A program made the translations under genes and the position numbers. Positions 1,312 through 20,216 of a DNA stretch of 20,216 bases are shown piece by piece. The stretch spans positions 1 to 20,216 of IMG/VR virus record IMGVR_UViG_3300009080_000078, one strand, 5' to 3'. Within the stretch, counting starts at the first letter, position 1, and each line of letters begins with the position of its first letter. Under the pieces are notes generated by a model, which did not search any database, had not been told where the DNA came from, and was given only the letters and a program-made list of their open reading frames with translations. Origin of the DNA: a virus.

Positions 1312-3309
1312 TTATTCGAAGAAATATGCTCCTTCTATCTCTAACATTGATTCATTGAATACATTCTCCACAATATTCAGCTTGTCATAATCAAATCCTA
1401 CTTGATCACACAAATGCTTCAATGGATTGTTATCAATGAATATAGTCTTGTAAGCTCGCTTGATACATCCTTGCAACAAGTGAACACTAGCAGCATCACA
1501 ACGGAAGCAATCATGAATACTTACAAAGCCCTTGATTCCAGCTTTCTTAGCTTCAACTGCCACAGTTCTTGCTATCAAAGCATCTAAGCCTTGAATGAAG
1601 TTGACTAGGAACGATGTTGCAAACCTCTCAACATCATACTCATTAGTCTTTATGGTAATGCCTGTGTTATCTATCTTACTACCAAACTCAAGTATCTTTT
1701 GTGCATCATACCTGATCTCAGTATAATCACGAGTTATCTCCTCCATACGATAACTAGCATGATCTACAACAGTACCATCAATATGTGTATAGATGATATG
1801 TGTCACATCATTACTCAAACACATCTCCTCAATGTGTTCTGCAAAGGCTTGTTGGAAGTTGGTTATCTTAGCTCCTAATACTTTCTTAACAGCATTGATA
1901 ACAAGGTCAGCACGTTGATCATCATCTAGATCAGGATGCAGACTCAACAGCTTACTCATTAACACCTTACATCCTTTAACAGCAGGACGACCACCACTAT
2001 ACATGATAGCCATGTAAGCCTTCTTAATATCTTCCCTGAGAATACGATGATCTAACTTCTCAACTGTCAGGTGATATGGATCAGGTATCCTTGTGCTACT
2101 AAAACCACAGGCTTGCAGTAATCCTAACTCATGGAACAAGATAGCATATATCTGTGTACCAGATGACTTAGCATCATCACCTATTGATATACGGCAGTCT
2201 ACACTACCTTTAACAATGATCTGAGCTATATCAATACACAGTCTCACATACATGAATGGTGATTTAACTTTACAGTCATCACCCTCATTCAGATATTGTG
2301 CAAGTGCCTGAGAAGGCTTGATAGCTACGTTACGGATATAACGCTCATCAAGATACTTGTCATCACTAACACAATCTGCTAACTCTACAAGCAACTTCTT
2401 ATGAGCATATGATCCAGCATGTACAATGCTTACATTCTGTGAAGAATATAAAGCACGATTCATATCATCACCTTGTGGGTTAACACCGTATGTAGCTCTG
2501 AAGTACATACGTCCACGGTCATCCATATCATACTCACTATAGTATGAACTTGATGGATGTAGAGATTGTGCTCCTTTCAATGTTGCAAATGCTGACAACC
2601 AAAGCTCATGTTTATATGTTAGCTTCTTAGTTGCAAGTACCACATTCATCATATGCTCATTAGTAGAGTATTCTGAACTCTGGAGATAATCACATGCTTC
2701 AACAGCTAAGATACTTGCAGCAACCAAGTTCTTCTTGAAGTAGTGAACACGACGATCAGCAGGATCACTTGATGTAAGTGGGCTGAACTTCATTCCCTTC
2801 ATTATCAAGCTCTTGAACTTAGTGCTAGGGATGAAGCCATAATCTTCATCCTCTTGCAAGAAGCCACAAGTAGCAAGATACTCCCTTACTGGTTGAGATG
2901 CTATCTCTGTCTCTTTCCAGTTAAACTTATCACGATTCTTCTTAATGAAGTAATCAAGATACTCGAAGTACTCAGCCTCAAGATGATGTAGTTCATCAGC
3001 TTCTTTGCAGTTATATATTGTGGCAAATACTGCCAAGGCCATTATCTGCCTTTCTACAATATTGAACACAAAGAACTCCTCTCTCCTCATAATACTCACG
3101 AAGATGCTAGGTACAGTAGATTGAATCATGAACTCATAGTTCTTCTCTACTGTTGTCTCCTCGAAGTGTATGGTACGAAGATCATCAACTTCGATCTTGT
3201 TGATCTTGTTGACTTTGTTAGCTGCTTTCGCAGACGCCAGTGTTAATGCTTTCATAGGTGTTGCTCCTTTAGTTACAGTTGAAGTTACAGTGTTGAATAC
3301 ATTATTCAT
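1312..3309 (-). CDS. Single-subunit (T7-type) DNA-directed RNA polymerase
   Basis: This is a phage-encoded RNA polymerase of the T7/N4 family, expected to transcribe phage genes from its own promoters. In 665-residue numbering: the DxxGR motif is at D263-R267 and leads into NPQGDDM; motif A is GDDAKSSGTQIY with D379 at the place of T7 D537; motif B has R425, K429 and Y437 with the same 4- and 8-residue spacing as T7 R627, K631 and Y639; motif C is HDCF with D600 matching T7 D812. The DxxGR-to-motif-A distance (116 residues) also equals T7's. The N-terminal region is about 160 residues shorter than T7's and the A-to-B segment about 44 shorter, nearer to the compact N4-type enzymes. Two in-frame starts have good ribosome sites: ATG 3309 (GGAG, 7 bases) and ATG 3255 (AAAGGAG, 8 bases). 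I give the longer. It is the last gene of the operon starting at 4270. Confidence 0.93.
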   Translation of the reverse strand: MNNVFNTVTSTVTKGATPMKALTLASAKAANKVNKINKIEVDDLRTIHFEETTVEKNYEFMIQSTVPSIFVSIMRREEFFVFNIVERQIMALAVFATIYNCKEADELHHLEAEYFEYLDYFIKKNRDKFNWKETEIASQPVREYLATCGFLQEDEDYGFIPSTKFKSLIMKGMKFSPLTSSDPADRRVHYFKKNLVAASILAVEACDYLQSSEYSTNEHMMNVVLATKKLTYKHELWLSAFATLKGAQSLHPSSSYYSEYDMDDRGRMYFRATYGVNPQGDDMNRALYSSQNVSIVHAGSYAHKKLLVELADCVSDDKYLDERYIRNVAIKPSQALAQYLNEGDDCKVKSPFMYVRLCIDIAQIIVKGSVDCRISIGDDAKSSGTQIYAILFHELGLLQACGFSSTRIPDPYHLTVEKLDHRILREDIKKAYMAIMYSGGRPAVKGCKVLMSKLLSLHPDLDDDQRADLVINAVKKVLGAKITNFQQAFAEHIEEMCLSNDVTHIIYTHIDGTVVDHASYRMEEITRDYTEIRYDAQKILEFGSKIDNTGITIKTNEYDVERFATSFLVNFIQGLDALIARTVAVEAKKAGIKGFVSIHDCFRCDAASVHLLQGCIKRAYKTIFIDNNPLKHLCDQVGFDYDKLNIVENVFNESMLEIEGAYFFE
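3264..3270 (-). promoter_or_regulatory. Second ribosome binding site inside the polymerase ORF
   Basis: AAAGGAG on the minus strand, 8 bases before the in-frame ATG at 3255. It reads as codons 13-15 of the long ORF, yielding TKGA. The same AAAGGAGCAACA block precedes an in-frame ATG in the neighbouring 228-residue gene. Translation from here would give MKALTLASAKAANKV and a 647-residue enzyme. Confidence 0.6.
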
Positions 3310-3333: not shown

Positions 3334-4020
3334 TTAGAAAGGTAAAACTTCACGGTTATCTTCAATCCAATTGTAGAGTTCAACATCCAACTCCTTATCT
3401 TCCATCTCCCTCCTGAAGCTATGTTCCCAGACTCTGATCTGATCAGCTATACCATCATCTTCAGCCCAAGGTGCTCCAAGCTCATAGTGAATGCCACCAC
3501 AAGCATGATCCTCAGCTTGCGTTAGATACCATTGCTCATCGATATACTGATTCATGTCATCAATGATATTAAGTATTGCCAAGCGTTCCTTGGTATTCTC
3601 AATACCAAATTCCCTACGCAGACAATCTTCTGTCAAGATAGACCACATGTAGTTAAGTGTTAAGTTATTCATAGTTTGATCCTTAAGGTATACTGTAAGA
3701 TGAACATCATTCTCAACTTGTTTGATCTTCCAATCTATTACACTACTCACACACTTCAACCTCTCAATAAACTGACACTCTATGTAAGGGCGAACACTAC
3801 TAACAGCAGTGCCATAAATAGCCCATAACTCCATCTTACCATCAATGCTACCAATCTTCTTGATATCCAACAGTTCTTCTCCTAGTATGATGCAAGTGCT
3901 ATTCTTCAGGGTGTTGTCAGCTTTAGCTTGAATGTTGCTCAGTTTGCGAATGAACATGGTTGTTGCTCCTTTAGTAGTTACAGTAGTGTTGGTAGTACAG
4001 GTGTTAGTTACAATAGTCAT
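3334..4020 (-). CDS. Unknown 228-residue protein upstream of the RNA polymerase
   Basis: I do not recognise this protein. It is mixed alpha/beta in appearance, with no signal peptide or membrane segment, and ends in an acidic, tryptophan-rich stretch (about residues 165-228; WAEDDGIADQIRVWEHSF). It has a CGG and several histidines around residue 170 but no clear metal-site spacing. The start at 4020 overlaps the preceding 53-residue gene as TAATG and has AAAAGGA upstream. A second in-frame ATG at 3957 has a stronger AAAGGAG site and would give MFIRKLSNIQAKA. The polymerase gene follows 24 bases after its stop, so the two are probably co-expressed. A partner or regulator of the polymerase is a reasonable guess from position only. 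Confidence 0.8.
   Translation of the reverse strand: MTIVTNTCTTNTTVTTKGATTMFIRKLSNIQAKADNTLKNSTCIILGEELLDIKKIGSIDGKMELWAIYGTAVSSVRPYIECQFIERLKCVSSVIDWKIKQVENDVHLTVYLKDQTMNNLTLNYMWSILTEDCLRREFGIENTKERLAILNIIDDMNQYIDEQWYLTQAEDHACGGIHYELGAPWAEDDGIADQIRVWEHSFRREMEDKELDVELYNWIEDNREVLPF
3966..3972 (-). promoter_or_regulatory. Second ribosome binding site inside the 228-residue ORF
   Basis: AAAGGAG on the minus strand, 8 bases before the in-frame ATG at 3957. The flanking text TGTAACTACTAAAGGAGCAA closely matches TGTAACTAAAGGAGCAACA before ATG 3255 in the polymerase ORF, so the leader block appears duplicated. Confidence 0.6.
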
Positions 4021-4181
4021 TACTTCATATCCTTTTCATTACATACATTAGCAACATACGTGTTATGTGCATGAGCATCATAACACACAATAACATCATT
4101 ATCATTACCACTAATAACGAGCATTGCAAATAGCGTCACGGCTATTATGAGTGTGAGTAAGACATACATTATCTTAGTCAT
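4020..4181 (-). CDS. Small membrane protein, 53 residues
   Basis: The ATG at 4181 gives MTKIMYVLLTLIIAVTLFAM, a strongly hydrophobic segment of about 18 residues, then LVISGNDNDVIVCYDAHAHN and a polar tail with two cysteines, ending NEKDMK. It is probably a single-pass inner-membrane protein, with the basic N-terminus in the cytoplasm and the tail in the periplasm. The ribosome site is AAGGTG about 8 bases upstream. It overlaps its upstream neighbour and its downstream neighbour by TAATG, so all three are likely translationally coupled. Family unknown. The chain of matched signals argues that it is real despite its size. Confidence 0.65.
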   Translation of the reverse strand: MTKIMYVLLTLIIAVTLFAMLVISGNDNDVIVCYDAHAHNTYVANVCNEKDMK

Positions 4182-4270
4182 TACTTAGTCACCTTACGTA
4201 GAGTGTTAATAACAACAACACTAATTGGATAAGACGCAACAACACACATAGCCAAGATTGCAATAGTCAT
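4181..4270 (-). CDS. Tiny membrane peptide, 29 residues, first gene of the polymerase operon
   Basis: The ATG at 4270 follows TTAAGGAGAAACAT, one of the best Shine-Dalgarno sites in the left half of the window. The product, MTIAILAMCVVASYPISVVV followed by INTLRKVTK, is one hydrophobic segment with a basic C-terminus. Its stop overlaps the next start as TAATG. Its function is unknown. It could be a membrane-active peptide or mainly a leader that couples translation of the operon. Its reality rests on the ribosome site, the hydrophobic profile and the overlap. Confidence 0.6.
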   Translation of the reverse strand: MTIAILAMCVVASYPISVVVINTLRKVTK

Positions 4271-4284
4271 ATGTTTCTCCTTAA

Positions 4285-4321
4285 GTACAACACGTATACA
4301 TTGTGTATACATACATTGTAC
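4285..4321. promoter_or_regulatory. Imperfect 37-base palindrome in the polymerase operon leader
   Basis: GTACAA (4285-4290) mirrors TTGTAC (4316-4321). Inside, the palindromic GTATAC occurs twice (4294-4299 and 4305-4310), 11 bases apart. It lies 15-51 bases upstream of the ATG at 4270. It could be an operator or a 5' leader hairpin. Confidence 0.45.
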
Positions 4322-4343
4322 AAAACCTGAGTATATAGCAAAA

Positions 4344-4359
4344 GAGTCTTAAGAGACTC
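4344..4359. other. Short hairpin in the polymerase operon leader
   Basis: GAGTCT and AGACTC form a 6-bp stem around a 4-base loop. On the minus strand TTTTGC follows, making it a weak attenuator-like candidate ahead of the ATG at 4270. Confidence 0.35.
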
Positions 4360-4381
4360 CTTATACCAGACACCCATAGTC

Positions 4382-4441
4382 GGACACATACTGTATTTTT
4401 ATTTTTATTTAGGACACACACCGTATTTATAAAAATTTTAC
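4382..4441. repeat. Two imperfect 30-base tandem repeats starting GGACACA
   Basis: GGACACATACTGTATTTTTA at 4382 and GGACACACACCGTATTTATA at 4412 begin units of 30 bases. A shorter GGACACACG follows at 4452. The tandem layout in a promoter region suggests protein-binding sites. Confidence 0.45.
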
Positions 4442-4593
4442 AAACGCTAAAGGACACACGTGGCTTCAGCCACTACTACACACTACACACACGGGATTTT
4501 AAAATTTTTTGCGACTGCGGAAAAAAGACATTGTATCAAGGGCTAAAAAAAAATTTTTTTATAACACAGACTATCTACTATATGTAATACTAT

Positions 4594-4617
4594 ATAATTA
4601 TATTGGTCGATCTTAAC
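4594..4617 (-). promoter_or_regulatory. TCGACC element upstream of the polymerase operon
   Basis: The minus strand reads GTTAAGATCGACCAATATAA then TTAT. It shares TCGACC(A/G)(A/G)TATA with the elements at 771 and near 5230. It points toward the polymerase operon about 330 bases downstream, as expected if the polymerase activates its own operon. Confidence 0.4.
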
Positions 4618-4660
4618 TTTGGAAAAGATTATGCAATAACACTGTAGGAGGGAGCTAAAA

Positions 4661-4693
4661 AATATATTCTGAGCGTAAGCGAAAGAATATATT
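4661..4693 (-). terminator. AT-rich terminator-like hairpin
   Basis: AATATATTCT (4661-4670) pairs with AGAATATATT (4684-4693). An inner GC/GC stem closes a 4-base loop. On the minus strand the stem runs into TTTTTTAGC. It is placed to end late-operon transcripts just before the TCGACC element. Confidence 0.45.
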
Positions 4694-4773
4694 CTTTAGG
4701 TCACTCCGTAACAAATATAGATTATAAACAAAAGAAAGAAGAAGAAGAGCTTTCTTTTTATAATATTGAAATG

Positions 4774-4803
4774 GGAAAAGCTCCTTTTGGAGGGAGCTTT
4801 TCC
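4774..4803 (-). terminator. Strong hairpin, likely late-operon terminator
   Basis: GGAAAAGCTCC (4774-4784) pairs perfectly with GGAGCTTTTCC (4793-4803) over 11 bp with an 8-base loop. The 3' arm carries the T-run (CTTTTCC) in either direction. It lies 130 bases beyond the last gene of the late block. Confidence 0.55.
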
Positions 4804-4911
4804 TTATTTCATAAGTTACAATATTGTTAAAATACTATAATAGTATTGTTCACTTTTTTATTTAAAAGCTTTTTTAAGGCTCTTTTTCACTCATTTTTCC
4901 CAAAAATAGTT

Positions 4912-4929
4912 AATATTTAGCTAAATATT
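4912..4929. other. Perfect 18-bp palindrome after the lipoprotein gene
   Basis: AATATTTAG and CTAAATATT meet with no spacer, two bases beyond the stop codon at 4932. It may be a protein-binding site or part of the 3' end structure of the lipoprotein mRNA. Confidence 0.45.
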
Positions 4930-4931
4930 CC

Positions 4932-5189
4932 TTACTTTTGAGCGGCTTTTTGCAGTAAAACTTCCAGTGCGCGAGAGGTAACTTCTGCAGAATTCTGGCT
5001 TGCAATCAAAGCATCATCAGCAGTTTGTTGTGCTACAGCAATTTTCTGATCTTGTACAGCTTGTTGTGCAGCAACTTTGTCACGATAAGAAACAAATTCA
5101 CCTTGAACCTTTTCTACGTCACCGTTAGTTGCACAGCCAGCCAAAACCATAGTTGCTACCAGAGCCATTGCAGTCATAAATACTTTCAT
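4932..5189 (-). CDS. Lpp/OprI-like outer-membrane lipoprotein
   Basis: This 85-residue protein has a basic start (MKVF), a hydrophobic core and a lipobox L16-A17-G18-C19. Lipidation at C19 and an Ala at +2 predict sorting to the outer membrane. The mature part (67 residues) is Ala/Gln-rich with heptad-like spacing (QQAVQDQKIAVAQQTADDAL) and is probably a coiled coil. It ends RALEVLLQKAAQK, much like the murein lipoproteins OprI and Lpp, whose final Lys is joined to peptidoglycan. A C-terminal Lys (K85) is present. Being phage-borne, it could alter the envelope during infection, serve as a spanin-type lysis partner or block superinfection. The sequence does not decide between these. A TCGACC promoter-like element lies directly upstream, so it may have its own transcript. 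Confidence 0.8.
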   Translation of the reverse strand: MKVFMTAMALVATMVLAGCATNGDVEKVQGEFVSYRDKVAAQQAVQDQKIAVAQQTADDALIASQNSAEVTSRALEVLLQKAAQK

Positions 5190-5210
5190 TTGTATCTCTT
5201 TATATAATAT

Positions 5211-5242
5211 TACTGGTCGAATGTAGATAAGCTCGACCAGTA
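5211..5242. promoter_or_regulatory. Inverted pair of TCGACC elements upstream of the lipoprotein gene
   Basis: TACTGGTCGA (5211-5220) and TCGACCAGTA (5233-5242) form a perfect 10-bp inverted repeat with a 12-base loop. Read on the minus strand, TTATCTACATTCGACCAGTA (5230-5211) is the near-copy of the element at 771 and lies about 20 bases before the lipoprotein start. The pair could be a promoter for the lipoprotein gene, a terminator for the gene upstream of it (stop at 5260), or both. Confidence 0.5.
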
Positions 5243-5259
5243 TAGTTAACTATTCCCAA

Positions 5260-5898
5260 TTAAAGGAACAGTGCAATCAGCCCGACTGGAAGAATTTCCA
5301 AGAAGAACGAGCCAATGTTTTTGGGATAATAGTGGAAGTCAGCACTCTCGCTGGCTTTAGCCACATACTTATCCATCATTTCTTTATGCATAGCTGCTTG
5401 GTTAGTATCTCCCATTTCAGTATACATAACCCAATACTTTTGGTGTACTTCAGCCATTTTCAAGTTCTGACACATAGCAGACTCAAATACAGTAGAACCA
5501 CCTGCACTAACAGTAGAACCAGAAGCACCCTCTTGACAAGACTGAGGGAACACTCCAGCAGCAGATGAAGCAGCTACATCTTTATTATTAGATGCGTCTA
5601 CAAAAGTGTCAGTAGTAATATCAATAGAACTACTAGAAGAAGAACCAGAGCTAGAGCCGGAAGCTGCACTGGAACCTTCTGAGATAGCTTGTTGAATTTG
5701 CTGCTGCTTTTGTTGTTGCTCTTGTTGCTGTTGTTGTTGCTGCTGTTGTTCAGCAGTGCTTCTACTATTACCATTGTTGCCATTGTTGCCGTTATTACCG
5801 TTATTTAGTCCTGGAGGTATCTCAAATGGTGGTACAGCATAACTAACTGCTGAAACAGACATGAAGATACATACAACCAACATCTTTACAAGTTTCAT
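5260..5898 (-). CDS. Secreted Gln/Asn/Ser-rich membrane protein, unknown function
   Basis: This 212-residue protein starts MKLVKMLVVCIFMSVSAVSY, a typical Sec signal peptide likely cleaved near residue 21. The mature part holds NNG repeats (about 32-44), a run of nine Gln with more Gln to residue 69, a Ser/Gly/Ala-rich linker (75-91), a region with two Cys (121 and 143) that could form a disulfide, and a helical stretch with HKEMMDKYVAKA. The last 17 residues (SFFLEILPVGLIALFL) are hydrophobic, suggesting a C-terminal membrane anchor. The periplasm or outer face of the inner membrane is its likely site. The start has AGAAGGA 5 bases upstream. I know no homologue. Its place beside a lipoprotein suggests a lysis, superinfection or envelope role. 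Confidence 0.75.
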   Translation of the reverse strand: MKLVKMLVVCIFMSVSAVSYAVPPFEIPPGLNNGNNGNNGNNGNSRSTAEQQQQQQQQQEQQQKQQQIQQAISEGSSAASGSSSGSSSSSSIDITTDTFVDASNNKDVAASSAAGVFPQSCQEGASGSTVSAGGSTVFESAMCQNLKMAEVHQKYWVMYTEMGDTNQAAMHKEMMDKYVAKASESADFHYYPKNIGSFFLEILPVGLIALFL

Positions 5899-5933
5899 TT
5901 ATTTATTCCTTCTAGAATTGGTTTCTCCAGTTT

Positions 5934-5953
5934 GCCACAGGAAGTGCTGTGGC
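5934..5953 (-). other. Hairpin before the secreted protein gene
   Basis: GCCACAG (5934-5940) and CTGTGGC (5947-5953) form a perfect 7-bp stem with a 6-base loop, between the 139-residue gene and the secreted protein gene. No T-run follows on the minus strand. It may be an RNA-processing or weak terminator element separating structural genes from the last two genes. Confidence 0.45.
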
Positions 5954-5957
5954 TCAC

Positions 5958-6377
5958 TTAATGTTGTTCCACTTTAGGTTCAGGTGGCAATTCAATTGGT
6001 TGAGATACTTCGGGAGAACCTGCTGGAAGCTGTCCTCCAAATTCTACCTCAAACCATGCTTTACCTAAATAATATGAAACAGCATTTTCATCACCTGGAG
6101 GAACATAGTCTTCACCATATGTCTCCATTAAATACATAGCTTTAGTAACTGGAGGTGTCTTAGGCCCAAATACTGTTAGCATCTGTTGGTAATAACCAGC
6201 AGCTGTTTTTGGCTCACCTGTAGATAGTTCTTCATCGCTATTAAACGGTGTAGCTCTAGTTGCAGCTTGCAGTTTAGCTCTGGTAAGAACTTCAGGTCTA
6301 AATGGTTTAGATAGGGCTTTTAATTGAAAGTCGTGATTATCTAAGATTATCTCTTGTTCACTCCTCATTTCATCCAT
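5958..6377 (-). CDS. Hypothetical 139-residue protein
   Basis: I start it at the ATG at 6377 (MDEMRSEQEIILDNHDFQL), which has GAGG 9 bases upstream and lies 1 base from the stop of the preceding gene. A longer in-frame extension to 6449 overlaps the preceding gene and lacks a ribosome site. The protein is soluble and acidic, with a Pro-rich C-terminus (ELPPEPKVEQH). Its middle part contains AAGYYQQMLTVFGP and VSYYLGKAWFEVEFGG. I do not recognise a family. Coupling to the GNAT-like gene and the fibre genes suggests a structural or assembly role. Confidence 0.7.
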   Translation of the reverse strand: MDEMRSEQEIILDNHDFQLKALSKPFRPEVLTRAKLQAATRATPFNSDEELSTGEPKTAAGYYQQMLTVFGPKTPPVTKAMYLMETYGEDYVPPGDENAVSYYLGKAWFEVEFGGQLPAGSPEVSQPIELPPEPKVEQH

Positions 6378-6378
6378 A

Positions 6379-6810
6379 TTAATAAACCTCTTTATAATAA
6401 GTAAATATTCCATTAGGGTTAACTTGTTGAGAGAAGCCAAACTTAGCAAACACTCTTTGCCAACCTTTCCTAGTTGTATGGAACACTACTCTTTTAGCCT
6501 TAAACACCATACTGGCAACATCATTTATAGCTTCAAATGCAGCAGTTATTCCTGTTATATCATCAGGAGGTCTGATATAGCCATGCCATATAACAAGTTC
6601 TTCCCCATTCATAAAACAAGTGAAGAAACCTTTAGCAACTAAGTCTCTGCCGCCCACAACAAACAACACCCTACCACTGCATATCAAGTCCATCATCTGG
6701 TTAAGGTTTTGTTTTTGACCACACCTATCAAGCCCTTCTTCTAGTAAGGACATTTGAGGGAAAATACCTTCTGCATCACTAATGATACTAAAATTGATTT
6801 TCCCTTTCAT
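6379..6810 (-). CDS. GNAT-acetyltransferase-like phage protein
   Basis: The ATG at 6810 overlaps the TGA of the upstream gene as ATGA, so translation is probably coupled. A TTG two codons earlier is a less likely start. The 143-residue product has a central beta segment (GRVLFVVGG, ELVIWHGYI), a helix and a C-terminal (R)VVFHTTRKGWQRVFAKFGF then IFTYYKEVY. This is the fold pattern of small GNAT-like proteins common in phage structural clusters. I cannot see a convincing acetyl-CoA binding loop (Q/RxxGxG/A), so enzymatic activity is uncertain. It may modify or fold tail proteins, or the fold may be reused structurally. Confidence 0.6.
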   Translation of the reverse strand: MKGKINFSIISDAEGIFPQMSLLEEGLDRCGQKQNLNQMMDLICSGRVLFVVGGRDLVAKGFFTCFMNGEELVIWHGYIRPPDDITGITAAFEAINDVASMVFKAKRVVFHTTRKGWQRVFAKFGFSQQVNPNGIFTYYKEVY

Positions 6811-7290
6811 GGCCAAGTGAACCAGTGGAATGTACCATTAACTGTACCAAACACGTTTGTAGGCATATTGAAAAATGCAACAGTGTTTGGATTACTTGCT
6901 GTCCAGCCCAGATTGGTTACATATAACTTTTCTATCATGTTATTGTCTGTAATACGAAGTGTCTTAGATGCAGGCGCTGATCCATATAAATTAATATATC
7001 CACCAACTCCTGGCATATAACGTAACTGATCTATTTGCACTCCATTATAATCCCCCTCAAAATACCCCGCTACATTTCGATGTGTGCCCCATGAGCCGCT
7101 TCCTTGATCCCAATTCTGACATTTAGTACCAGCCCATTTACCGTGGAAATTAGCTATTGATATCAAACTATCAGGGTCTGGTCTCTGGGCAAGCCCTCTC
7201 CATTGCGTATTATTGAAATTACAATTCAAAAAACTATAAGGCTGTGTATATCTAAGTTGATTTGCAATATCATCAAACCCTAACTCTCCG

Positions 7291-7307
<17 letters not shown>
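6807..7307 (-). CDS. Small tail-associated protein (MALPSSG type)
   Basis: The start MALPSSGELGFDDIANQL followed by PDSLISIANFHGKW matches the N-terminal pattern MALPSSG-(I/L)..DI...L...isl.dfyGk seen at the head of many phage tail fibre and tail-tip proteins. The remaining 100 residues are rich in Gly, Asn and aromatics (NVAGYFEGDYNGVQIDQLRY) and look like a beta-sandwich, possibly a surface or carbohydrate-binding domain. It has two Cys (C29 and C63). The ribosome site is GAGGAG with 7 bases of spacing. It overlaps the end of the giant fibre gene by 17 bases. A fibre accessory or tip protein is likely. Confidence 0.65.
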
Positions 7308-12168
<4,861 letters not shown>

Positions 12169-15679: not shown

Positions 15680-16373
15680 ACAACCTCCCTACTTTAAGTA
15701 AACTCTCATTAGTATATGGTGTAGTATCAATGATACCACGGTTGTCTTGTACTACGAACTTTACACCAGTAGGTCTTACCATGTTCATAGTCAGACCAAT
15801 ACCTACACGCTGCAATTGTCCCAAGTTTTCATGGATAGTAATTAATGCATTGTTAGGTGAAGGCTCTGTTATCTCTGTATCACACTGCATACCAACGACA
15901 TAATCTATAAAGTTAAGTACGTGTTCAATTCTACAATTGGTGCTATTTTGGATAATTTTTGCATATATAATGTTACGATAACTTGAGTCATCTAGTATCA
16001 AATCATTACTGTCTAGTTGTCCTCTGCCCTTATATACACCACCTAAAGTTCTATCATAGTAAGAGCCAATAGAAGGAACTTTAGATTCAGGATCATCATA
16101 GAAACCAAAGTAACCAATAGGTGAAGCACCATAGAAGATACGACCTATACCTACAATCTCTCCAATAATATCTAGTTGATAACCATAAGCATCTGCTAAG
16201 TATCTATAGTTAATAGTATCTTCAATAGCTTTAACTAATATATCTATTTCACCCACAAAAGCTTTAATGTAGTTTTGTAGGTTTGGAGAATCTTTGTATT
16301 GCCATATGAGTATATCTACAACTTTTTCTGTTGGTACGATAAACTCTACTGTTTTGCTTGGTTTAAGAGCCAC
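15663..16373 (-). CDS. DUF2612 baseplate / tail protein (gpI-like position)
   Basis: This 236-residue protein has the features of DUF2612 tail proteins: an N-terminal helical part ending DAYGYQLDIIGEIVGIGR, then YFGFYDDPESKVPSIGSYYD, LILDDSSYRNIIYAKIIQNS, and a C-terminal half with an INxVxG-like core. These proteins occupy the place of P2 gpI/Mu gp48 after the J protein and connect the wedge to fibres. The start is GTG (16373), with AAGG about 9 bases upstream, and overlaps the J gene by 11 bases. No other start codon is available nearby. Confidence 0.85.
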   Translation of the reverse strand: MALKPSKTVEFIVPTEKVVDILIWQYKDSPNLQNYIKAFVGEIDILVKAIEDTINYRYLADAYGYQLDIIGEIVGIGRIFYGASPIGYFGFYDDPESKVPSIGSYYDRTLGGVYKGRGQLDSNDLILDDSSYRNIIYAKIIQNSTNCRIEHVLNFIDYVVGMQCDTEITEPSPNNALITIHENLGQLQRVGIGLTMNMVRPTGVKFVVQDNRGIIDTTPYTNESLLKVGRLYGHKI

Positions 16374-17499
16374 TTACCACCACCTTGCTAGTATCTGTCC
16401 TAGCTCGTTGCTGTACAGTTATTGGCAAGTCAGCTGTACCCATAGTGCCAGATGCAGTAAACTTAATAGTAATACTTGTTACTGATACATTAGGTGTAGC
16501 TTCAAGAACCACGTTAAACAGTTTAGACCAAACAACATCATCAGATATTTGCAAGTTGTTTATATACTCTACAAGTGCATTCTGTGCAAGACTTTCACTA
16601 TCAAGTGAAGCACCTTGCAGCTTCTTAATCACAACAGCAATATCAATATCAATAGGTACTGGTCTGCTAATACCAATAGGGTGAGGATAGCCTCTAGTGT
16701 CATAAACTTGAGTAACAATATCACCAAAAGCTTGACAACCAATTGGTTTGTTATCGTAAATAGCCTTAGAGATTTCCTCTGGAGTACCACCCTCTACAAT
16801 AGTTAAGAAGCTGTGAGCAGGTATACCATTAACAGGAACATTTTCATAGTTCTCAATAATAGCAATATAGGGAAGTCTCAATCTAATAACTGCTGCATAT
16901 ATAGCATCAATAGAAGATGTACCAGCGTTAACTACTAAAGATTCCCTTCTGGCTCTTAGTGCTGGATCTTCTTCTGAGATAATACCAGTGATTCCAGGCT
17001 CTAGGTTAGTTGCAGAAGATAAGCCTGCAATAACATCTGTAATGGTATTTACTTCGTTAGCTGCAATGTATATAGCTCCAGGTGTTGTACACTCAGCAGT
17101 TACTACTTCTGGTATTACAGCATCAGCTATAGTAGCAAACTCCAAATCATCAGAAGTTTTAATTATATATCCTTTTGGTATCAGTGTGCCGTTCGATCCA
17201 TTGAAAGTAATAGCAACTGTTGTTGGCTGGTTACTAATCCTAGTTACACCATTCAGTTCACATAGTTTATCTAGTCCTACACCAAAAGAACTGGAAGGAC
17301 TATAGGCATTGTAAGCAGCCTCAGCTTGTTGCCACATAGTTGCAAGCAAGTTTGATATAACACCAATTACTTGACCATCAGCACTTTCAGGTGATGTATC
17401 AAATCCTGTACCAAATTTTGCAACCATGCTGCTATTAATATCGTTTGTAATCTCTACTAGGCTTCTAGGTATGAAGCCTTCATTCGTAACTCCAGCCAT
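16363..17499 (-). CDS. Baseplate J-like wedge protein
   Basis: This 378-residue protein matches baseplate J proteins (P2 gpJ, T4 gp6 core). The N-terminus is GFIPRSLVEITNDINSSMVA, followed by the hallmark helix ATMWQQAEAAYNAYSPSSSF and GVGLDKLCELNGVTR. A carrier domain (TVAITFNGSNGTLIPKGYII) comes next, then GITGIISEEDPALRARRESL and the C-terminal part with PVPIDIDIAVVIKKL. It forms the wedge heteromer with the gp25-like protein, whose gene ends 1 base upstream. The ribosome site AGGAGG overlaps that gene's end. Confidence 0.92.
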   Translation of the reverse strand: MAGVTNEGFIPRSLVEITNDINSSMVAKFGTGFDTSPESADGQVIGVISNLLATMWQQAEAAYNAYSPSSSFGVGLDKLCELNGVTRISNQPTTVAITFNGSNGTLIPKGYIIKTSDDLEFATIADAVIPEVVTAECTTPGAIYIAANEVNTITDVIAGLSSATNLEPGITGIISEEDPALRARRESLVVNAGTSSIDAIYAAVIRLRLPYIAIIENYENVPVNGIPAHSFLTIVEGGTPEEISKAIYDNKPIGCQAFGDIVTQVYDTRGYPHPIGISRPVPIDIDIAVVIKKLQGASLDSESLAQNALVEYINNLQISDDVVWSKLFNVVLEATPNVSVTSITIKFTASGTMGTADLPITVQQRARTDTSKVVVSGS

Positions 17500-19744: not shown

Positions 19745-20216
19745 TTAATCATTATGCAGTTGATTAGCCATAGCTAAATAGTTTAGTGAATGTTCACCAA
19801 CTCCTTTCCCTTCATACTTGCCGTGGTTTACTATGTTATCTGACAACTCATTACCAGCAATATAGTTCCCATAGAATGCTTCAGGAGTAAACTTATCTCC
19901 ATACCTTGACTTAATTTGCTCAATGTATTTCTTAACACCTTGCACACTTTGTCTAAAGTTTGTTCTATCTTTTACACCTAAATTGCTGGCTGTATCTGGC
20001 ATAAACTGGAAAGGCCCAACTGCTCCTGCTGGAGATACAGCATTCATTTGTACTTCATTGTGCCCTCTATTTTCTATTTGAGCTACAGTCATTATCATTT
20101 CTTTAACATCTTCTCTTCCACCAGATGCTTCTTCTATAACTCTCATTTGGTCATCATTAAACTTAACCATTTTTGCAGCTTTAACACCTTTATCTACATT
20201 ACGATAAGTATCACCA
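19745..20216 (-). CDS. C-terminal part of a tail protein with lytic transglycosylase domain (partial)
   Basis: The open frame continues past ATG 20170 to the window edge (upstream codons read GDTYRNVDKGVKAAK). No Shine-Dalgarno precedes ATG 20170, so I read it as internal. The domain has the SLT signature: the catalytic Glu in MIMTVAQIENRGH (E33 if counted from ATG 20170), then NAVSPAGAVGPFQFMP and TASNLGV, and later AFYGNYIAGNELSD. It cleaves peptidoglycan glycan strands with a 1,6-anhydro product. At this position it is probably the tip of a tape measure or tail lysin opening the cell wall during DNA entry. How much of the protein lies outside cannot be seen. Confidence 0.85.
   Translation of the reverse strand, partial: GDTYRNVDKGVKAAKMVKFNDDQMRVIEEASGGREDVKEMIMTVAQIENRGHNEVQMNAVSPAGAVGPFQFMPDTASNLGVKDRTNFRQSVQGVKKYIEQIKSRYGDKFTPEAFYGNYIAGNELSDNIVNHGKYEGKGVGEHSLNYLAMANQLHND

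Follow-up and report, generated by a model that had tools for sequence, protein, structure and literature searches.

Murein lipoproteins of the Lpp type tether the outer membrane to the wall through their C-terminal Lys, which is joined to peptidoglycan by L,D-transpeptidases. A phage-encoded Lpp is already known as an annotated gene of phage PVP-SE1, and the gene described here, a divergent OprI-type candidate in a lysis slot, is probably a variant of this arrangement. A tblastn search with Escherichia coli Lpp returned 23 phage records, 15 of them with at least 80% query coverage; those of the 15 that were listed come from Salmonella and Cronobacter phages of the PVP-SE1 kind and from Erwinia phage FBB1, and some of their products bear the annotation major outer membrane lipoprotein. 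The Lpps of PVP-SE1 (Seunavirus, YP_004893895.1) and FBB1 (QOI66628.1) both terminate in Lys and are 53–55% identical to E. coli Lpp. PVP-SE1 is also listed with an rv5-family outer-membrane spanin subunit (o-spanin) in the part of PMC6139136 consulted, and with this o-spanin present, the Lpp is probably additional to the spanin rather than the spanin itself. The Lpp match in locus L171 was set aside as bacterial DNA, as a pyruvate-kinase-like ORF adjoins it in the pykF–lpp order of E. coli. Our literature search found no paper studying a phage-encoded Lpp.

A second group of precedents comprises five uncultivated virus contigs (L173–L177), which encode alanine-zipper lipoproteins ending in KSQLK. 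The phage genes of the Lpp type that were looked at repeatedly lie inside or beside tRNA arrays: at 2492–2731 in L168 (PVP-SE1), 2492–2728 in L169 (FBB1), 4004–4237 in L172 and near 4001–4276 in L173–L177 (near 3145 in L175). The gap to the tRNA is 85–283 nt in the four cases measured, as if these genes were members of a host-supply gene set. The first-pass annotation was right that phages rarely carry such a gene, though PVP-SE1, FBB1 and the uncultivated contigs provide precedents.

The window, that is, the whole stretch of DNA analysed here, is a single IMG/VR record of 20,216 bases, and its lipoprotein gene is base-for-base identical in two further IMG/VR contigs. Between the window and contig G002, the lipoprotein gene differs by 0 bases, the neighbouring slot genes by at most 3 and the polymerase gene by 7. 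G002 comprises 56,758 bases and looks like a complete genome, since 40-mers taken at each end indicate a terminal overlap of about 123 bases. The polymerase encoded at 1312–3309 has ~32% identity to Chaseviridae polymerases, the baseplate protein J encoded at 16363–17499 gives a ~43% match to Aeromonas Pahsextavirus, and a polymerase profile scan of IMG/VR recovered 25 loci, all of which except G002 lie at 33% identity or below. Because of these matches and the distance of every other polymerase locus, the phage represents a lone Chaseviridae-like lineage. The GC3 of the lipoprotein gene is 0.244, as compared with a phage median of 0.30, and since this value is phage-like, a recent transfer or a recent stray fragment from a host was rejected. 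No tRNA is present in the window.

The lipoprotein gene begins with ATG and is closed by a stop codon; the coordinates of its parts and of neighbouring elements are collected in Table 1. Its product, here termed P0001, has a positively charged N-terminus followed by a hydrophobic stretch and the lipobox LAG-C at residues 16–19, and the predicted mature part starts with CATNGDV and finishes with QKAAQK. The lipobox, the length of the mature part and the C-terminal Lys named in the first-pass annotation, which gave no strand, were all confirmed in the sequence, on the minus strand. An Asp directly after the lipobox Cys is a signal for retention in the inner membrane; P0001 combines a signal peptide II with Ala at this position (LAG-C-A) and is thus without the retention signal. 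Lys-terminated ORFs account for 10 of the 59 in the phage, so a final Lys is frequent by chance and is, alone, weak evidence for an Lpp identity.

Table 1 Features of the lipoprotein locus (positions in the window).
Feature	Position	Strand	Basis
85-aa lipoprotein ORF, Lpp/OprI-like	4932..5189	-	ORF call, sequence, profile scores
Signal peptide, residues 1-18, ending at the lipobox LAG-C	5136..5189	-	Sequence; strict lipobox scan
Mature lipoprotein Cys19-Lys85, 67 aa	4935..5135	-	Sequence
Predicted continuous helix, residues 22-83, ~93 Å at 1.5 Å per residue	4941..5126	-	AF2, single sequence
C-terminal Lys85, candidate peptidoglycan attachment residue	4935..4937	-	Sequence; Lys end in 28/28 extracted bacterial Ala-zipper relatives
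212-aa gene directly upstream, possible partner	5260..5898	-	Signal peptide, C-terminal hydrophobic helix, predicted N-out/C-in
212-aa protein, residues 195-211: hydrophobic helix at the C-terminus	5266..5316	-	Mean hydropathy 1.93 over residues 194-212
Inverted repeat in the lipoprotein gene leader: perfect 10-bp arms (5211-5220/5233-5242), 12-nt loop	5211..5242		Repeat search; folding
Terminator-like hairpin within the 750 nt that follow the lipoprotein gene	4773..4804		Called on +, hairpin nearly symmetric

The AF2 model of P0001, computed without an alignment, consists of a single 62-residue helix, with a pLDDT of ~92–95 over residues 51–80. The length computed for this helix is on the order of that required to bridge the distance between outer membrane and wall. 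In the C-terminal half (residues 46–82), a heptad register places Q-I-A-A-A-S-S-T-A-L-K in the core, that is, mostly Ala, Ser and Thr, as expected for an alanine zipper. The single-sequence model thus contains a long helix with a small-residue heptad core, and the earlier description of the mature part as of the coiled-coil type appears fair, the predicted form being an alanine/serine zipper.

The top NCBIfam family for P0001 is NF040598, the Lpp/OprI alanine-zipper lipoproteins (E = 1.4e-5, 25.5 bits); Pfam gave nothing better than E = 0.03. The score falls below the curated cut-off of 43 bits, which the undisputed phage Lpps fail as well. In a calibration that covered eight phage records, scans of whole records gave 24.7 bits for the PVP-SE1 Lpp and 27.6 for the FBB1 Lpp, and the records of lambda, T7, P2, N4 and T1 had no match at E ≤ 1; the T4 record reached 15.3 bits, over profile positions 2–25 only. 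A search of the same type gave P0001 23.6 bits. Much of the NF040598 score is contributed by the signal peptide and the CATNGDV start, as the mature part alone matches no NCBIfam family. A match of P0001 to PHROG 478 (RDF, E = 0.0018) was dropped, as it is lost for the mature part.

For a second calibration, a profile was built from the mature parts of 28 bacterial alanine-zipper relatives, that is, from 37 loci less eight without a lipoprotein ORF by the extraction rule and less L153, in which the ORF was in the wrong frame; six of the 28 members had been found with P0001 as query, a mild bias in its favour. On this profile, mature P0001 scores 12.4 bits, as compared with 15.6 for E. coli Lpp, 6.9 for the PVP-SE1 Lpp and 8.9 for the FBB1 Lpp. 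As controls, 11 lipoprotein-like ORFs were taken from parts of six phage genomes; they include the PVP-SE1 Lpp, while lambda Rz1, missed by the lipobox rule, is absent from the set. Of the ten controls other than Lpp, nine score between −5.8 and 2.3 bits and the T4 ORF has no score; two of the ten also terminate in Lys. The lipoproteins of L173–L177 reach 42–50 bits on the bacterial profile and lie in the tRNA arrays of tRNA-rich contigs, whereas they share with P0001 a CATN-S/G-D-I/V-x-K-L/V-Q-x-E-I/F start, a Lys-rich end and the final Lys. Likewise, the PVP-SE1 and FBB1 proteins resemble P0001 as small phage lipoproteins with a final Lys and an NF040598 score in the same range, but their genes adjoin tRNA genes, whereas that of P0001 lies in the lysis slot and its product is OprI-like rather than Lpp-like.

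Searched as query against 369 gammaproteobacterial genomes, P0001 found alanine-zipper lipoproteins as its best matches, with 7 of the 369 genomes at E ≤ 1e-3. Its mature length lies within the range of the bacterial relatives (64–101 residues), all 28 of which end in Lys and 27 of which have a basic residue four or five positions from the end. P0001 shares with the Lpp/OprI family the lipobox, the C-A-T/S-x-x-D start seen in several members, the Ala-rich helix, the mature length, the basic residue near the end and the C-terminal Lys; by comparison, it is without the C-terminal R-M-F/R-M-L motif and is encoded by a phage. In Pseudomonas aeruginosa PA7, the OprI gene was only the second match to P0001 (E = 0.196), and the BLAST alignment with E. 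coli Lpp covers residues 2–39 only. No close relative was found by tblastn of 50,697 phage records at E ≤ 10; a plasmid search gave two records at E = 7, and the IMG/VR search returned the two identical contigs and locus L004 (E = 1e-4, residues 8–29 only). The PDB search yielded no homologue of P0001, only designed helical repeats at E = 0.2. The proposal that the nearest relative might be the Lpp of the host was not borne out: 8-mer patterns found no close relative in the species-genome collection, and the curated cut-off was failed. The broader resemblance to murein lipoproteins noted at first pass holds in that NF040598 is the top family, P0001 scores like the undisputed phage Lpps and other phage lipoproteins score lower; as a claim of membership it falls short of the cut-off. 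For this reason, P0001 is described here as working like, rather than as proven to be, an Lpp/OprI member. The most likely reading, to which we give a moderate probability, is that of a murein-lipoprotein analogue carried by the phage, of the Lpp/OprI alanine-zipper type and with a predicted function.

The lipoprotein gene has the tail-fibre genes on one side and the RNA polymerase gene on the other. The slot contains genes for 166-, 145- and 139-aa proteins of unknown function, then that of the 212-aa protein and, last, the lipoprotein gene, which is followed by ~750 nt without a convincing gene; the 145- and 139-aa genes had no tblastn match in phages. In relatives, the same slot holds a holin, a SleB-type hydrolase or an M15 peptidase. 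Aeromonas phage LA93P2 carries there an M15 peptidase and a Hydrolase_2 cell-wall hydrolase, and several other Chaseviridae-like loci encode a holin-like protein of 117–133 aa and a SleB-like protein, both names being assigned by reading the sequences. At 5260–7307 and 3334–4457 of the window, the lysis cassette typical of Chaseviridae, with its holin and its SleB or M15 enzyme, cannot be recognised. Thirteen Chaseviridae slot proteins used as queries against G002 gave no convincing match, the best (E = 0.008) falling on a hydrophobic stretch read from the plus strand. Pfam and PHROGs scans of chosen ORFs, together with these queries, recognised no endolysin in the slot, and the only peptidoglycan hydrolase recognised by Pfam and PHROGs among the chosen G002 ORFs is the lytic transglycosylase (SLT) domain of a tail protein, encoded on the minus strand at 19745–20170 of the window (29208–30743 of G002). 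Because a choice of G002 ORFs was scanned, an unrecognised endolysin is likely.

A strict lipobox scan of the coding strand of G002 found two ORFs, of which P0001 is the convincing one; the other, of 54 aa, obeyed the rule but looks spurious. The same scan was applied to one strand of Chaseviridae-like loci that are mostly partial genomes; LA93P2 (50 of 52 kb scanned), SNUABM27 (22 kb scanned) and 13 of 14 further loci yielded no lipoprotein ORF. Locus L037 has two lipobox ORFs, one of 39 aa and the other downstream of its polymerase. The 212-aa protein has a signal peptide, an Asn/Gly-rich part with NGN repeats and a Gln-rich stretch, three further helices and the C-terminal hydrophobic helix; it is predicted to be periplasmic and anchored in the inner membrane through its C-terminus, in an N-out/C-in orientation. 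AF2 models it with low confidence (mean pLDDT 61.5). Neither the whole protein nor its C-terminal half has a relative outside copies of the same phage or a family of weight in Pfam, PHROGs or NCBIfam.

The position of the gene argues against reading P0001 as a murein-lipoprotein analogue, since a lysis protein would be more at home in a lysis slot than a housekeeping protein. On the main rival reading, P0001 may instead be an unusual o-spanin that pairs, once the wall has been degraded, with the 212-aa type I N-out/C-in protein to fuse or disrupt the membranes; we regard this as unlikely, though the arrangement of the locus suggests it. The spanin survey PMC6139136, in the part consulted, describes lipoprotein genes as a rarity in phages and as the point from which a spanin search usually sets out; it lists the Chaseviridae phages pAh6-C and Spp001 as spanin-less and states that a type I inner-membrane protein with a C-terminal TMD could act as the inner-membrane subunit (i-spanin). 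P0001 is the only convincing lipoprotein ORF of the phage genome and is predicted to reach the outer membrane, its gene occupies the slot used by relatives for the holin and the wall-degrading enzymes, and the 212-aa gene, whose product combines a signal peptide with a C-terminal hydrophobic helix, lies 70 nt upstream. However, matches to spanin PHROGs 1275 and 1267 (E = 0.005–0.009) depend on the signal peptide and vanish for the mature part, so a spanin by homology was rejected. Compared with o-spanins such as Rz1, P0001 has no Pro-rich part and no Cys beyond Cys19, and it is unlike other phage lipoproteins. No ordinary type II (N-in, C-out) i-spanin adjoins its gene: the nearest ORFs with an N-terminal TM, of 43 and 53 aa, are separated from it by over 600 nt, and no more than about 30 of their residues lie C-terminal of the TM. 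The lack of a recognised endolysin in the slot also argues against an o-spanin. The o-spanin role raised in the first-pass annotation therefore retains the slot position and a partner-like neighbour but finds no sequence match in the periplasmic part, and the nearest homologues found for P0001 are not o-spanins, given the NF040598 score shared with phage Lpps and the lower scores of non-Lpp controls. A bolder form of the idea, in which an Lpp/OprI-like outer-membrane rod and the C-terminally anchored type I protein (5260–5898) constitute an unrecognised spanin design that replaces the lysis cassette in this Chaseviridae-like lineage, seems to us rather more doubtful still; if true, the phage would convert the wall tether of its host into a membrane-breaking device.

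There are two further explanations. P0001 might be a generic small coiled-coil lipoprotein that is unrelated to Lpp and owes its likeness to the lipobox and an Ala/Gln-rich helix; its family scores are indeed low and lean on the signal peptide, and helical low-complexity sequence inflates matches, as the designed repeats retrieved from the PDB illustrate. By comparison, the signal of the mature part appears to depend on residue order, since only 2 of 2000 shuffles reach its 12.4 bits (a lenient control, as shuffling destroys the helix periodicity) and the reversed sequence scores −1.2 bits, and other phage lipoproteins score lower on the bacterial profile; the likeness is probably not one of chance, and this explanation is in our view improbable. 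A superinfection-exclusion lipoprotein similar to T5 Llp or Cor, which would bind an outer-membrane receptor from the periplasm and block adsorption, is in our view very improbable. Llp is a small phage lipoprotein encoded beside the receptor-binding protein gene (PMC9586334, seen in part), and the gene of P0001 is the fifth downstream of the long fibre gene. However, the Llp/Cor members covered in that part of the source share an intramolecular disulphide, which P0001, having no Cys after Cys19, lacks; its prediction is all-helical. LPS, named as the receptor of many Chaseviridae in the part of PMC13340011 seen, would be left unblocked by such a mechanism.

Returning to the murein-lipoprotein analogue, the ORF, its lipobox, the predicted helix, the family-level similarity and the gene position are consistent with the following course. 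As the product of the last gene in the tail/lysis transcription unit, P0001 would appear late. Sec would export it, Cys19 would receive the lipid, and sorting would take the protein to the outer membrane. There it may form a rod of ~9 nm, probably a trimer, that crosses the periplasm, and host L,D-transpeptidases could join its C-terminal Lys to peptidoglycan, as in Lpp. Such molecules would add links between the outer membrane and the wall, or replace the host lipoprotein once its supply stops, and the envelope might thereby be held together until lysis. A handful of large phages have an annotated Lpp; here, an OprI-type version occurs in a small phage, and the presence of such a divergent gene in a lysis slot raises the question of whether the phage strengthens the link between outer membrane and wall or reuses the host wall tether to break the envelope. 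The answer is also relevant to outer-membrane disruption by phages that are listed as spanin-less.

The claim that the lipoprotein gene has its own promoter-like element was not supported by a count of sigma70-like sites, of which 11 occur in 3900–7400 versus 11.1 expected from shuffles. The 70-nt gap upstream of the gene contains none (the consensus used was that of sigma70, and the phage has its own polymerase). A sigma70 promoter private to the gene was therefore rejected. The inverted repeat in this leader folds with z = −2.54, and its strict pattern, searched among 135 loci, occurs only in copies of this phage; its role could be that of a regulator site or of a hairpin in RNA processing. 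Terminator-like hairpins are not in excess, with two found versus 1.8 in shuffles.

The long fibre protein (7291–12168, minus strand) comprises 1625 aa, among them numerous collagen-like repeats, and carries a Peptidase_S74 chaperone; its copy in G002 has 1676 aa, indicating that the repeat region varies in length. The stretch of ~750 nt at 4180–4932, which separates the late genes from the polymerase region, is rich in inverted repeats, and one of these, at 4647/4684, has 24-nt arms that are 88% complementary.
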